Shown here: positions 18,208-22,183 of the stretch, one piece after another
Layout of the letters: each line of letters starts with the position of its first letter
Position numbering within the stretch: position 1 is the stretch's first letter
Assembly (NCBI GenBank): GCA_003249035.1
Contig: QBMK01000014.1
Span: forward strand, 1 to 64,000
Length of the DNA: 64,000 bases
Origin: Pseudanabaena sp.
Lineage (GTDB): Bacteria; Cyanobacteriota; Cyanobacteriia; Pseudanabaenales; Pseudanabaenaceae
Direction of reading: 5' to 3'
Position numbers and translations under genes: made by a program
Notes under the pieces: generated by a model
What the model saw: the letters and a program-made list of their open reading frames with translations, nothing else
Databases searched by the model: none
Told to the model about the DNA's origin: nothing

Positions 18208-18822
18208 ATGGATAGAGTTAATTGTCTAAATCCCTTGCCAATTGTTGAGACTTTCCATTCTGTGCAAGGAGAAGGTTCATGGATGGGAGCTAATGCGTTT
18301 TTTATTCGCTTAGCGGGTTGTGATGTAGGTTGTTCTTGGTGCGACACCAAAATCTCTTGGAATATGAAAAAACATCCTGAAATAGCGATCGCGGATCTAG
18401 TAAATGAAGCGGTCAATGCAAAACCTGCAATGGTAGTGATTACTGGAGGAGAGCCATTGATGCATGATTTAACTGAGTTGACGCGTGAGTTAAAAGAGCA
18501 AGGGCAGCGAGTTCATTTAGAGACATCTGGAGCACATCCATTTAGTGGTAGCTTTGACTGGGTGACCTTCTCGCCAAAGCAGTTTAAACATCCCCATGAA
18601 AGTATTTACGAACAGGTCAGCGAGCTTAAGGTTGTGGTTAAAGATGCGTCGGATTTAGTTTGGGCAGAACAGAATGCTGAGAGAGTTTCTTCCAATGTCG
18701 TGAAATACTTACAGGCTGAGTGGGAGACTTTTAGTAGTAAAGATCTCGTACTGAAATATGTTCTAAGTAATGCTAATTGGCGCGTGAGTATCCAAACTCA
18801 TAAGTTATTGGGAGTAAGGTGA
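18208..18822 (+). CDS. queE: 7-carboxy-7-deazaguanine synthase (radical SAM)
   Basis: Third enzyme of queuosine precursor (preQ0) synthesis; it contracts 6-carboxy-tetrahydropterin to CDG. 204 residues, short as usual for this family. The [4Fe-4S] motif CDVGCSWC at about residues 38-45 follows the QGEG and AFFIRLAGC segments typical of QueE; a GGEP motif lies near 75. It starts one base after the arfB stop and its TGA overlaps the GTG start of queC, so the three genes very likely form one transcript. Confidence 0.95.
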
Positions 18823-19496
18823 GCAAGATGTCAGATGCAGAACTTTCTAAAAGAAAAGCGGTGATTTTGCTATCAGGTGGGCTAGATTCTGCTACATCGG
18901 CAGCTCAGGCGATCGCCGATGGCTATGAAGTAATCGCTTTATCATTGCGCTATGGTCAGCGCCACGAACGCGAATTGCTTGCCGCTCGGCAAGTTGCCAC
19001 AGCTTTAAATATTCGTGAACATTTTGTAGTAGACGTGAATTTAGCTCAGTGGGGTGGCTCAGCTTTGACCGATGAAAGTATTGCCGTACCGACAGAAGGT
19101 GTACAAGTGGGTGAAATTCCCATTACCTATGTCCCTGGGCGAAATACAGTATTTATTGCGATCGCCTTATCTTTAGCTGAAGCAAAGAATGCTGAAGCGA
19201 TCTATTTGGGAATTAATGCAGTTGACTATTCTGGGTATCCCGATTGTCGCCCTGATTATTTGGAAGCTTTTCAAAAGTTAGCGGCGCTTTCATCTAAAGT
19301 TGGGATAGAAGGAAATGCACCAAAATTGATTGCCCCTTTGGTGATGGATTCTAAAACTGATATTGTCCGACGAGCAAGACGTTTAGGGGTGCCGATTGAG
19401 CTTACATGGTCGTGCTATCAGGGTGGTGACGTACCTTGTGGTGTTTGTGATTCATGTCGGATTCGGGATAAAGCTTTACTTGAAGCAGATGCCTAA
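18819..19496 (+). CDS. queC: 7-cyano-7-deazaguanine (preQ0) synthase
   Basis: ATP-dependent ligase that turns CDG into preQ0 on the queuosine pathway. 225 residues from the GTG that overlaps the queE stop; an ATG nine bases on is an equal candidate and is preceded by AAGGTGAG. The PP-loop LSGGLDSAT lies near residue 18 and the zinc ligands CYQGG...CGVCDSC near 198-212. The product feeds tRNA queuosine. Its neighbour queE does the preceding step. A tRNA gene follows 90 bases downstream. Confidence 0.95.
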
Positions 19497-19584: not shown

Positions 19585-19658
19585 GGCAGCTTGGCTCAGG
19601 TGGTTAGAGCGACGGTCTCATAATCCGTAGGTCCCGGGTTCAAATCCCGGAGCTGCTA
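19585..19658 (+). tRNA. tRNA with CAU anticodon (elongator Met, or Ile2)
   Basis: 74-base cloverleaf: acceptor GGCAGCT pairs with AGCTGCT (one G-U), D arm GCTC...GAGC, anticodon loop CTCATAA giving CAU, T arm CCGGGTTCAAATCCCGG, discriminator A. No encoded CCA. The anticodon stem has one T-T mismatch next to the loop. CAU may mean elongator methionine or a lysidine-modified isoleucine tRNA; the body looks more like elongator Met. Upstream GCGG is not part of the acceptor. Confidence 0.92.
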
Positions 19659-19669
19659 TATAGATTTAT

Positions 19670-19704
19670 AAAGTATAGGTGAAGCTTAGCTTCACCTATA
19701 CTTT
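19670..19704. terminator. Hairpin after the tRNA
   Basis: Perfect 16-bp stem AAAGTATAGGTGAAGC with loop TTA, ending in TTTT. It lies 11 bases beyond the tRNA and before the vipp1 promoter region. Confidence 0.75.
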
Positions 19705-19760
19705 TATGATGTTCGTGATAATATGTAGACAATTTACTTCCTAACGCAAAGGACCGGATT

Positions 19761-20525
19761 ATGGGATTACTCGATCGCATTGGTATGGTGGTCAAGTCCA
19801 ATGTAAATGCAATGGTTTCGGCGGCTGAGGATCCAGAAAAAATTCTGGAGCAATCAATCATTGATATGCAAGAAGATTTGGTGCAATTGCGCCAAGCTGT
19901 TGCGCAATCGATGGCTGCACTCAAACGCCAAGAGCAACAATATAATCAAAGTGCTTCGCAAGCACAAGAGTGGGAAAAACGGGCAATGCTAGCTCTCCAA
20001 AAAGGAGATGAAAATCTAGCAAGGGAAGCACTTAGTCGTAAGAAAACCCATGGCGATGCTGCCGCGACCCTAAAAACTGGCTTAGATCAGCAGTCAGGTC
20101 AAGTAGATACGCTCAAGAAAAACTTAATTGCGATCGAAGGCAAGATCTCTGAGGCAAAGACCAAGAAAGAGATGCTCAAAGCTCGTATGCAGTCTGCTAA
20201 GGCTCAAGAGAACCTTAACAATATGCTTGGCAAGGTTAATACCAACTCCGCCTCTGCTACTTTTGAGCGCATGGAAGAGCGGGTCTTGATGGCTGAAGCC
20301 AGAGCTGGTGCAAGTGCTGAGCTTGGCATGGATAATCTCGAATCTCAGTTTGCTCAGCTAGAGGCTGGTAGTGGGGTTGATGATGAATTAGCCGCACTCA
20401 AAGCGAAAATGATGACTGGTAGCCCAGCATCTCAAGGTGCTTTGCCTCCATCCGATGCTGCTAAACCAACGGTTGGAGCTGCGATCGATGCTGAGCTAGA
20501 AGCTCTACGCCGTCAAATGGGTTAA
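19761..20525 (+). CDS. vipp1: Vipp1/IM30 membrane-remodelling protein
   Basis: ESCRT-III-like coiled-coil protein of 254 residues that forms rings or filaments on thylakoid and plasma membranes and supports thylakoid formation. It has the IM30/PspA start (MGLLDRIGMVVKSNVNA in outline), the AAEDPEKIL helix, long heptad stretches to about residue 190, and a separate C-terminal helix (AAIDAELEALRRQMG) after a Pro/Ser linker. That extra helix distinguishes Vipp1 from PspA. A paralogue without it follows 227 bases later on the same strand. Confidence 0.9.
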   Translation: MGLLDRIGMVVKSNVNAMVSAAEDPEKILEQSIIDMQEDLVQLRQAVAQSMAALKRQEQQYNQSASQAQEWEKRAMLALQKGDENLAREALSRKKTHGDAAATLKTGLDQQSGQVDTLKKNLIAIEGKISEAKTKKEMLKARMQSAKAQENLNNMLGKVNTNSASATFERMEERVLMAEARAGASAELGMDNLESQFAQLEAGSGVDDELAALKAKMMTGSPASQGALPPSDAAKPTVGAAIDAELEALRRQMG

Positions 20526-20546
20526 TTGATTTGTCCGATGGTGCTC

Positions 20547-20662
20547 TATAGCAACGTAAGCTTTTCTTAGGACATAAAACCCAAAAGATAGGTGGCGGCG
20601 CTTCGCGCCGCCACCTATCTTTTGGGTTTTGATTTTTTCTATCTAACTCTCGCATTGCTATA
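20547..20662. repeat. MITE-like unit carrying a palindromic hairpin
   Basis: Outer ends TATAGCAACGTAAG and CTCGCATTGCTATA are inverted repeats, with TA at both edges as in IS630-type elements. The centre is a 26-bp perfect stem (20576-20630, AAAACCCAAAAGATAGG...) with loop TTC. The left part (TATAGCAA...CTTAGGACATAAA) recurs at 42647. It lies between the two vipp1/pspA genes and probably ends the first transcript. Confidence 0.75.
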
Positions 20663-20752
20663 TATTTGAATCATGTGGTAAAAGAAAAAAAACTGAAAAC
20701 TTGCGCATGATATTATGTAGGCAATTCACTCTTTAGGACAAAGGAAAGGATT

Positions 20753-21457
20753 ATGGGACTACCTGAACGCATTATTATGGTGCTCAAGTCCAATCTAAAT
20801 GCAATTGTCTCGGCTGCCGAAGATCCTGAAAAGATTTTGGAGCAATTAATCTTTGACATGCAAGAAGATCTGGTGCAATTGCGCCAAGCTGTTGCACATG
20901 CAATTGCAGCATTAAAAATCCAAGAGCAAAAATACAATCAAAGTACTGCACAGGCTCAAGAATGGGAAAGCCGAGCAATGTTGGCTATCCAAAAAGGAGA
21001 TGACGACCTTGCAAAAGAAGCGCTCAGCCGTAAAAAGACTCACGTTGAATCAGCAAATACTCTAAAAGCAGGCTTACAACTACAAACAGTGCAAGTTGAG
21101 TTGCTCAAGAAAAATCTAACTGCGATCGAAGGGAAGATTACTGAGGCTAAAACCAAGAAAGAGCTACTTAAAGTCCGTTTACAAACGAGTAAGTCTCAAG
21201 AAAAGCTCAACAATATACTTGGCAGCGTAAATACTAATTCGGCAGAGGCTACTTTTGTCCGTATGGAAGAGAAGGTTCTAAAAGCTGAAGCTTTGGTAGG
21301 TGCTACAGCCGAGCTTAATGCTGATGAACTAGCCTCTAAGTTTGCCCAGTTAGAATCAGGTAGCGATATTGATGACGAATTGGCTGCTCTCAAAGCTAAA
21401 TTAATGATCGTGAGTTCTCCTTCTCAGGTCGCTTTGCCGCCATCTGATAATACGTAG
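20753..21457 (+). CDS. PspA/IM30-family protein, tandem paralogue of Vipp1
   Basis: 234 residues, clearly the product of a tandem duplication of the preceding gene: MGLPERIIMVLKSNLNA against MGLLDRIGMVVKSNVNA, shared AAEDPEKILEQ, EALSRKKTH and VNTNSA blocks. It ends at PPSDNT and lacks the C-terminal helix of Vipp1, so its form is PspA-like. The 45 bases before the ATG (TTATGTAG-CAATT...GGATT) also match those before the first gene, so promoter or leader was duplicated too. Possible roles are membrane-stress repair or mixed assemblies with Vipp1; neither is shown. Confidence 0.87.
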   Translation: MGLPERIIMVLKSNLNAIVSAAEDPEKILEQLIFDMQEDLVQLRQAVAHAIAALKIQEQKYNQSTAQAQEWESRAMLAIQKGDDDLAKEALSRKKTHVESANTLKAGLQLQTVQVELLKKNLTAIEGKITEAKTKKELLKVRLQTSKSQEKLNNILGSVNTNSAEATFVRMEEKVLKAEALVGATAELNADELASKFAQLESGSDIDDELAALKAKLMIVSSPSQVALPPSDNT

Positions 21458-21523
21458 CTAATGCAAAGCTAGAAGTACTGATCTGCATTTCTTTGATAAA
21501 AGTAACAACAATAATGCGCGATC

Positions 21524-22183
21524 TCAATTTTTAGATTTTAGTAATTGCACTCTCTCTAAGTCTCGCTTAACTTCAAAACTAAGTTCGCGATTTTTAGGAT
21601 CGGTACTCAGTGCTTTATTGAGATAGATTTCCGCTTCGCGCAATTTGCCCATCAAAATCAATTCACTACTCCAACGATGGTAAGTTACAGCTTTCCAATG
21701 TATTACCTCTGGGGAGTTAGGAAACCTTTCACTCATCCCCTCGACAACCGCGATCGCAACTACATATTTTTTTTGCTTAAGCAAATCCTGTACACGTCTC
21801 AACATATCCAATTTGAGTTTCAGTTCTGGATCGCTATTAATTGGATCAACTTGATTATTAACTTGCTTTACCTCAATCTTAATTTTGGGATGAGGCTGAG
21901 GCGGTTTGCTGGGGGCTTTGGGTGAAGGAGGTGCGGGTTGCGATCGCGCCGTATTTACTGATGTATTTTTGGCGAACAGCTCCTTACTCAAATCCTCTTT
22001 ATCCGCATCTTTGAGCATTTTGTAAGCTTCTTGTACCAGACGAAACTTATCTGTTGCCGTAGGATCATTTTGATTTACATCAGGGTGATATTTACGCGCT
22101 AGGCGGCGATAAGCCACCTTAATGTCATCTAAAGTGGCATTTCGTGGAATTCCTAAAAGTCGATAGCATTCTGATATGTGCAT
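21524..22183 (-). CDS. J-domain protein
   Basis: 219-residue protein. The N-terminal J domain (residues 3-68) has the HPD motif in YHPDVNQ that stimulates Hsp70 ATPase. A Pro-rich, Lys-rich linker (about 75-105) leads to a helical C-terminal region that may hold one or two TPR-like helix pairs (LRRVQDLLKQKKYVVAIAVV, LMGKLREAEIYLNKAL, both in outline). It is not a full DnaJ: no zinc-binding CxxCxGxG. It probably recruits DnaK to particular clients. The small gene at 22195 lies 11 bases upstream on the same strand. Confidence 0.85.
   Translation of the reverse strand: MHISECYRLLGIPRNATLDDIKVAYRRLARKYHPDVNQNDPTATDKFRLVQEAYKMLKDADKEDLSKELFAKNTSVNTARSQPAPPSPKAPSKPPQPHPKIKIEVKQVNNQVDPINSDPELKLKLDMLRRVQDLLKQKKYVVAIAVVEGMSERFPNSPEVIHWKAVTYHRWSSELILMGKLREAEIYLNKALSTDPKNRELSFEVKRDLERVQLLKSKN

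Follow-up and report, generated by a model that had tools for sequence, protein, structure and literature searches.

Gene organization of the locus

The analyzed window, i.e. the whole stretch of 64,000 nucleotides, belongs to a Pseudanabaena genome and harbors two genes of the PspA_IM30 family in head-to-tail arrangement. The first, vipp1 (copy 1; 19761..20525, plus strand), a gene of membrane repair, encodes a protein of 254 amino acids with a C-terminal helix α6, and the second (copy 2; 20753..21457, plus strand) a tailless Vipp1 paralog of 234 amino acids. The two proteins are identical in 169 of 232 residues (73%) in a gap-free alignment, and both match nearly the full PF04012 (PspA_IM30) profile with 202 bits for copy 1 and 171 bits for copy 2, the cut-off being 33.9; the tandem family genes described at this place in an earlier note on the same DNA were thus recovered. 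Upstream of vipp1 lie a tRNA-Met gene (19585..19658, plus strand; ARAGORN) and, behind it, a hairpin formed by an inverted repeat (19670-19704). Downstream, a gene for a DnaJ-domain/TPR protein (21524..22183, minus strand; 77.5 bits to Pfam DnaJ) is oriented convergently with copy 2. Hsp70 systems act on Vipp1 oligomers elsewhere.

Copy 1 aligned to the Nostoc Vipp1 entry of the PDB (E 6.6e-86) as far as residue 253. Copy 2 ends after a PPSD motif which is common to both copies and is devoid of the Vipp1 tail helix. AlphaFold2 models displayed five helices in both copies (about residues 3-21, 25-81, 84-158, 164-202 and 206-219) and a sixth one (238-253) in copy 1 only, no helix being present past residue 219 of copy 2; since the models, with a mean pLDDT of 68 and 69, are of low confidence after about residue 150, only the helix boundaries were taken from them. 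The earlier observation that the second gene lacks the C-terminal helix of Vipp1 therefore stands, and copy 2 is a member of the PspA/IM30 family (PF04012) without the C-terminal linker and helix α6 by which a Vipp1 is recognized. Its best matches in the PDB are Vipp1 proteins (Nostoc, 233 bits; Synechocystis sll0617, 193 bits), as compared to 93 bits for the PspA entry 7abk, which we take to be from Synechocystis. A Foldseek search with copy 2 returned the engineered Vipp1-ΔH6 filament 8qbw as second-best match, and the structural alignment to 7abk gave 33% identity.

Upstream boxes and the intergenic repeat

Both genes are preceded by a leader/promoter box that reaches from a TGATAATATG-type element to the ATG. 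The box of vipp1 (19711..19760, plus strand) is conserved in the genus, and that before copy 2 (20703..20752, plus strand) agrees with it in 36 of 50 bases, as compared to only 16 of 47 in the preceding stretch, confirming the noted likeness of the sequences before both start codons. The repeat as a whole spans 300 nt at 81% identity (19716-20015 and 20708-21007). A box was present upstream of vipp1 in all 23 genomes inspected out of 26 from Pseudanabaena and upstream of copy 2 in all five genomes which have this gene, in G019 with a 1-base indel. Given this conservation of its own, the box says nothing about when the duplication took place. Each gene appears to carry its own promoter or leader, the role as promoter being read from the conservation of the box alone; a sigma-70 scan of the window yielded no plus-strand match at the vipp1 box and none that scored before either gene.

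Between the two genes lies a palindromic MITE-like repeat (20543..20668, no strand assigned), which has 63 matches at 41 distinct places of the genome and contains a perfect 26-bp hairpin (20576-20630) with a terminator score on both strands. The intergenic hairpin was scored in the window; in the remaining four genomes with the pair, a hairpin was recognized by visual inspection. By eye, copy 2 of G020 also carries an insertion of a palindromic repeat like that of the window at its 3' end, affecting the last residues only; the insertion point looks like a TA dinucleotide.

Distribution in Pseudanabaena and related genera

Among 26 Pseudanabaena genomes, vipp1 was identified in all and copy 2 in five (G000, G012, G015, G019 and G020), in each case directly after vipp1 and encoding a tailless protein of 230-239 amino acids. 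Named records with the pair are Pseudanabaena sp. UWO311, lw0831 and MAG M085S1SP2A07QC, with 87-88% identity to copy 2. The copy 1 proteins of the five pair genomes form one clade (100/99), as is also the case for their dnaJ genes (94/98, unstarred) in a tree rooted with the pair G009 and G013. In these latter two genomes dnaJ is located directly downstream of vipp1 with no copy 2 between them, and copy 2 thus occupies the position at which a tandem duplication would have placed it; the DnaJ-domain/TPR gene is probably the ancestral neighbor of vipp1. For the remaining 19 single-copy genomes, the flank downstream of vipp1 (about 0.6-3.4 kb) yielded no dnaJ. Remnants of copy 2 were likewise not found in single-copy genomes by blastn on the vipp1 flanks, some of them shorter than 1 kb, or by nhmmer around dnaJ, the full interval from vipp1 to dnaJ being covered in G002, G004, G014, G018 and G022. 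In the window, queE and queC (18208-19496) are situated between a release-factor-like gene and vipp1, as they are in G018, G005 and G010; tblastn did not find them at that position in the four further copy 2 genomes.

When 38 genomes of the order, which belong to a single family, were searched with copy 2, one Vipp1 was returned for each genome except one that is 77% complete and gave none. The remaining matches were the five copy 2 genes, G101_B, the extra copies of G013 and two weak matches (20-23% identity). Neither this search nor the trees revealed a protein of the PspA side, as defined below, in the 38 genomes. Besides a normal vipp1, G013 possesses a cluster of four or more vipp1-like ORFs, either diverged or broken, at the end of a contig (G013:C20:49000-54437, G013:C30), one of which encodes 262 amino acids with a tail-like end; the cluster is possibly a further expansion related to copy 2 (unstarred). 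In G101, which belongs to a neighboring genus, a second Vipp1-like gene follows directly after vipp1 (G101:C1:826000-828800) and has kept its tail (VDAELEALRKELGH).

Copy 2 is of Vipp1 descent

In a tree of 98 proteins, which comprised 23 of the 26 Pseudanabaena genomes (G006, G014 and G025 were omitted, each being score-equal to an included row) and hand-picked other cyanobacteria, the five copy 2 proteins formed one clade (100/100) within the Pseudanabaena Vipp1 clade (29 rows, 100/95), as expected for the local vipp1 duplication that had been proposed. This clade sits in a Pseudanabaenaceae clade (39 rows, 100/98), and a second cyanobacterial paralog clade is separate (21 rows, 100/99), the rooted tree leaving open in what order these three groups branch. 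An unrooted tree of 87 rows, in which no outgroup was used, 5 of 18 single-copy Pseudanabaena rows were kept and nine further, more diverged sequences were added, also placed the Pseudanabaenaceae on the Vipp1 side (51 rows, 100/98).

We refer to the second clade as the PspA side, since the PspA entry 7abk is matched by two of its proteins with 131-133 bits, as compared to 105 bits for copy 1; these two proteins still match Vipp1 entries higher, and Synechocystis PspA itself is not part of the trees. The lack of a tail would be in line with copy 2 belonging to this old clade, which the earlier note had named as the placement that would speak against its reading. However, copy 2 is 72-73% identical to the Vipp1 proteins of its genus, as compared to 36-45% for the eight PspA-side proteins of alignment A1, and its 93 bits to 7abk fall well behind those of the two PspA-side members. 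Forcing copy 2 together with 20 rows of the clade and their sister G043_1 was rejected with a p-AU of 0.00014 and a drop in log-likelihood of 83; the tree used for AU testing consisted of the 98 rows without 5 from the outgroup and 4 on long branches (G062, G057, Cal3974_1 and G030_1). Membership in the PspA-side clade is thus refuted at the present sampling of 20 clade rows without the Synechocystis PspA, and we regard it as virtually impossible.

Age of the duplication

The earlier note had further expected the second protein to stand beside the first in a phylogeny, and the trees do not show this: when free, they keep the two copies of a genome apart. A late origin, in which copy 2 and the copy 1 of its own genomes are sisters (p-AU 0.237 for proteins, 0.15-0.34 for DNA), and an older one, with copy 2 outside all Vipp1 proteins of the genus (p-AU 0.138) or joined to G101_B (p-AU 0.276), are both compatible with the data. 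DNA trees of vipp1 are less clear: third positions (79/90) as well as all positions (57/97) unite the copy 1 genes of the five genomes, but on first plus second positions G023 is placed within their group. Codon analyses of 18 of the 21 single-copy genomes and G101 gave a dS of 1.06-1.65 between copy 1 and copy 2, exceeding the 0.51-0.98 between copy 1 and 15 of the 18 single-copy members, which suggests either that the duplication is older than the five species or that copy 2 went through a burst of change; towards G003, G009 and G013 the dS of copy 1 is 1.28-2.35. Residues 64, 69 and 73 are specific to the genus, common to copy 2 and missing in G101_B, and eight such sites lie within copy 2. 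Five nucleotide sites are specific to copy 1, two of them being common to copy 2; with only five, they cannot decide the age. Overall, neither the trees (proteins; all, third, and first plus second positions) nor the clade-specific sites settle the age of the duplication within the family.

It is conceivable that copy 2 is an old paralog of the genus or of the whole Pseudanabaenaceae, akin to G101_B and the extra copies of G013, that has been lost widely. The high dS between the copies and the union with G101_B, which the AU test did not reject, would agree with this, as would the location of the second gene of G101, which directly follows vipp1 too, and two trees in which copy 2 groups with an extra copy of G013 (unstarred at 89/72 and 84/51). 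Several losses would be needed, however, and no remnant of them was found near vipp1 or dnaJ in single-copy members of the genus; G009 and G013, with which the dnaJ tree was rooted, have no copy between vipp1 and dnaJ, and the three genus-specific residues set copy 2 apart from G101_B. Such an old paralog therefore appears less likely than not. Horizontal arrival of copy 2 is ruled out, as the dS among copy 2 genes (0.13-0.47) is like that among copy 1 genes (0.18-0.42), which fits vertical descent.

Loss of the tail and its relation to the PspA side

Just past the stop codon of copy 2, a local alignment to the tail of copy 1 identified an out-of-frame remnant of the tail-helix coding sequence (21461..21475, plus strand). 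Shuffle tests yielded p-values of 0.007 for the window, 0.0145 for G012 and 0.0015 for G019, all from related rather than independent sequences, and no significant remnant in G015 (0.99) and G020 (0.16). The remnant in three of five genomes, together with the placement among Vipp1 proteins, shows that the tail was lost; the loss of helix α6 would most likely have occurred by a small deletion and a frameshift. Copy 2 resembles a deletion mutant made in the laboratory, Vipp1-Δα6, that would have come about naturally.

A missing tail is not restricted to copy 2. By eye, 9 of 22 PspA-side proteins (G043_1 and the 21-row clade) have the tail helix and 13 lack it, examples being the tailed loci L109, L114, L118 and L120 and the tailless loci L107, L116 and L142; a pattern search for the tail also flagged G031_b, G068_1 and Masti_1, where it matched helix α5, and overlooked G046_b and G126_1. 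A core tree of 45 rows requires at least five changes of tail state if copy 2 is left out and six if it is included, a count which does not tell gain from loss. Thus, the absence of the tail neither defines the PspA-side clade nor is a sure mark of PspA, its presence is no clean mark of Vipp1, and the loss of the tail in a second copy is not unique to Pseudanabaena. The proposal that one copy has turned PspA-like accordingly applies to the missing tail, but in sequence, fold match and phylogeny copy 2 has remained a Vipp1, with a helix α0 that has diverged from both. Nor does the pair reveal how PspA and Vipp1 originally separated. As far as the available text of the relevant studies goes, Vipp1 arose from PspA and differs from it by an added tail (PMC8281802, PMC13174344), which is the opposite direction. 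A separation of function between the two copies is possible.

Adjacent paralogs are not unusual in cyanobacteria. Twenty-seven of 44 genomes outside the genus contained at least two strong family members, and in 11 of these 27 two members were located within 1 kb on one strand; genomes without any family match (6 of 116 and 3 of 48) stay in the counts. The vipp1 and pspA genes of Synechocystis are presumably not adjacent, which had been taken as a contrast to the pair, but given these 11 genomes the contrast is a poor one. Adjacent PspA/Vipp1 paralogs in cyanobacteria have also been surveyed before, and the accessible part of that work suggests tandem duplication (PMC11237479); multiple Vipp1 copies per genome are mentioned in another article (PMC8281802, in part). 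The titles and abstracts retrieved on Pseudanabaena and Vipp1, or on tandem Vipp1/PspA in cyanobacterial genomes, contained no description of the Pseudanabaena pair. Like copy 2, the PspA-side proteins are often tailless partners adjoining vipp1; they belong, however, to a different clade, with which the union of copy 2 was rejected, and in the pairs represented on the trees the adjacent PspA-side gene precedes vipp1, G043 aside, whereas copy 2 follows it. Copy 2 is thus one more tailless second copy, distinct by its origin on the Vipp1 side, by its occurrence in a lineage without the other paralog and by its altered helix α0. In G053, a cyanobacterium of another family that is not among the tree rows, a strongly diverged second member of 222 amino acids (31% identity to copy 1) directly follows vipp1 (G053:C1:830500-832500).

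Selection on copy 2 and changes in helix α0

Pairwise dN/dS values were 0.10-0.21 among copy 2 genes and 0.006-0.04 among copy 1 genes. Copy 2 is therefore under purifying selection and has been kept in one group of Pseudanabaena species, its constraint being relaxed, as its dN/dS is several times that of copy 1. Of 50 columns that are at least 95% conserved in 64 other cyanobacterial members, 40 are unchanged in all five copy 2 proteins and 10 are altered in at least one; four are altered in all five (R56 to I or V, A141V, A146S and A148S), and E126 is replaced by A in four of the five, the copy 2 of the window being unaffected.

A further set of changes is common to all five copy 2 proteins and resides in the membrane helix α0 (L4P, D5E, G8I and V11L). 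The helix starts with MGLPERIIMV in all five and with MGLLDRIGMV in copy 1; the PspA/Vipp1 motif MGLFDRxxRV is not found in copy 2, and copy 1 departs from it too. Proline at position 4 occurs in none of the 64 other cyanobacterial members. According to the part of the text available to us, Phe4 and Val11 are needed for Vipp1 function, Phe4 in vivo, and helix α0 of Synechocystis PspA kinks at Gly8 (PMC13051332). With a proline at the position of the needed Phe4, copy 2 may bind membranes poorly.

Alternatively, copy 2 might be a duplicate in slow decay, under weak constraint and without a distinct role. The proline in all five proteins could be read this way, as could the dN/dS relaxed relative to copy 1, the lost tail with its remnant left behind, the repeat that hit the 3' end in G020 and the restriction of the gene to 5 of 26 genomes. 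On the other hand, the reading frame is open in all five species although dS exceeds 0.4 in the most distant pair, dN/dS is clearly below 1, and the changes are uniform and fixed while the core is largely unchanged. We thus consider decay to be quite improbable.

Proposed role of the pair

In its family, its core from α0 to α5 and its side of the tree, copy 2 is like the cyanobacterial Vipp1/IM30 proteins (Nostoc punctiforme, 6zvr; Synechocystis sll0617, 7o3w), which are also its best matches in sequence and structure; it differs from them by the lack of the linker and helix α6 and by its unusual α0. The engineered Vipp1-Δα6 (residues 1-219; PDB 8qbw), as described in the available sections of PMC11919738, has the same architecture as copy 2, a Vipp1 core without the C-terminal domain. 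The engineered protein was shortened in the laboratory; copy 2, in contrast, occurs in nature as a conserved gene, carries substitutions in α0 and has an intact vipp1 as its neighbor. The same sections state that Vipp1 1-219 forms more ordered and stabler polymers with reduced dynamics (PMC11919738), and removal of the tail helix favors rods and raises fusion rates according to an excerpt of a further study (PMC6374351).

With the duplication at the locus, the loss of the tail, the altered α0 and the constraint on the gene established, we infer by analogy to these mutants that copy 2 most likely functions as a modified ESCRT-III subunit which alters Vipp1 polymers. Copy 2 was born by duplication of vipp1, the promoter box included, and has fixed several changes in membrane helix α0; it would be transcribed separately from vipp1. 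With the ESCRT-III polymer core (α1-α5) kept, copy 2 could polymerize with Vipp1 or alone. Lacking the tail that keeps polymers dynamic and carrying an altered α0, it may shift membrane-bound polymers to stiffer, more ordered sheets or filaments and might thus serve as a specialized, membrane-stabilizing subunit beside the dynamic Vipp1, in a family in which no PspA-side gene was found. To this reading as a whole, i.e. a duplicated Vipp1 with its promoter box, placed between vipp1 and dnaJ and acting as a natural Vipp1-Δα6 subunit that modifies Vipp1 polymers, we assign a probability of about 0.5.

Alternatively, copy 2 might act by itself as a stress-induced membrane protector of the PspA type, forming its own rods and not mixing with Vipp1. 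It is tailless like PspA and has its own upstream box, and since no PspA-side protein was seen in the 38 genomes of the order, the role of PspA could be vacant there; Vipp1 is moreover reported to be able to replace PspA in E. coli (PMC6882379, in the part available). Yet copy 2 is not of PspA-side ancestry, its α0 reads MGLPERIIMV instead of the MGLFDRxxRV of PspA and Vipp1, and its upstream box is that of vipp1 and gives no sign of a separate stress control. We therefore hold an independent protector to be unlikely, and favor the role as a modifier of Vipp1 polymers because the core and the upstream box of copy 2 are those of Vipp1.

Chloroplast Hsc70 reportedly binds the tail of VIPP1 and controls disassembly. 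If such control holds in cyanobacteria, the loss of the tail would uncouple copy 2 from recycling by chaperones, a speculation that is worth noting in view of the DnaJ-domain gene next to it. A second Vipp1 paralog in one cell is also known from Chlamydomonas, with VIPP1 and VIPP2 (PMC6882379, partial text); this is a eukaryotic lineage, likened to copy 2 by description and not by sequence.

The cited work on the tail dealt with artificial truncations, and here a natural tailless Vipp1 has been kept by selection beside the full-length one. With the pair, it can be tested genetically if a cell benefits from having both tailed and tailless ESCRT-III subunits and if bacteria, like eukaryotes, can form composite ESCRT-III polymers. 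It might even be hypothesized, albeit as an unlikely reading, that a bacterial ESCRT-III of two subunits, dynamic and tailed versus stiff and tailless and possibly co-polymerizing, arose anew by tail loss; if true, the system would have come about by the loss of a tail and not by the gain that is thought to have made Vipp1.

Apart from the pair, a distant PspA_IM30-like protein is encoded elsewhere in the genome of the window (G000:C55:76572-77129; 33 bits, just under the Pfam cut-off), and a second family match is present in G004 and G010 as well.
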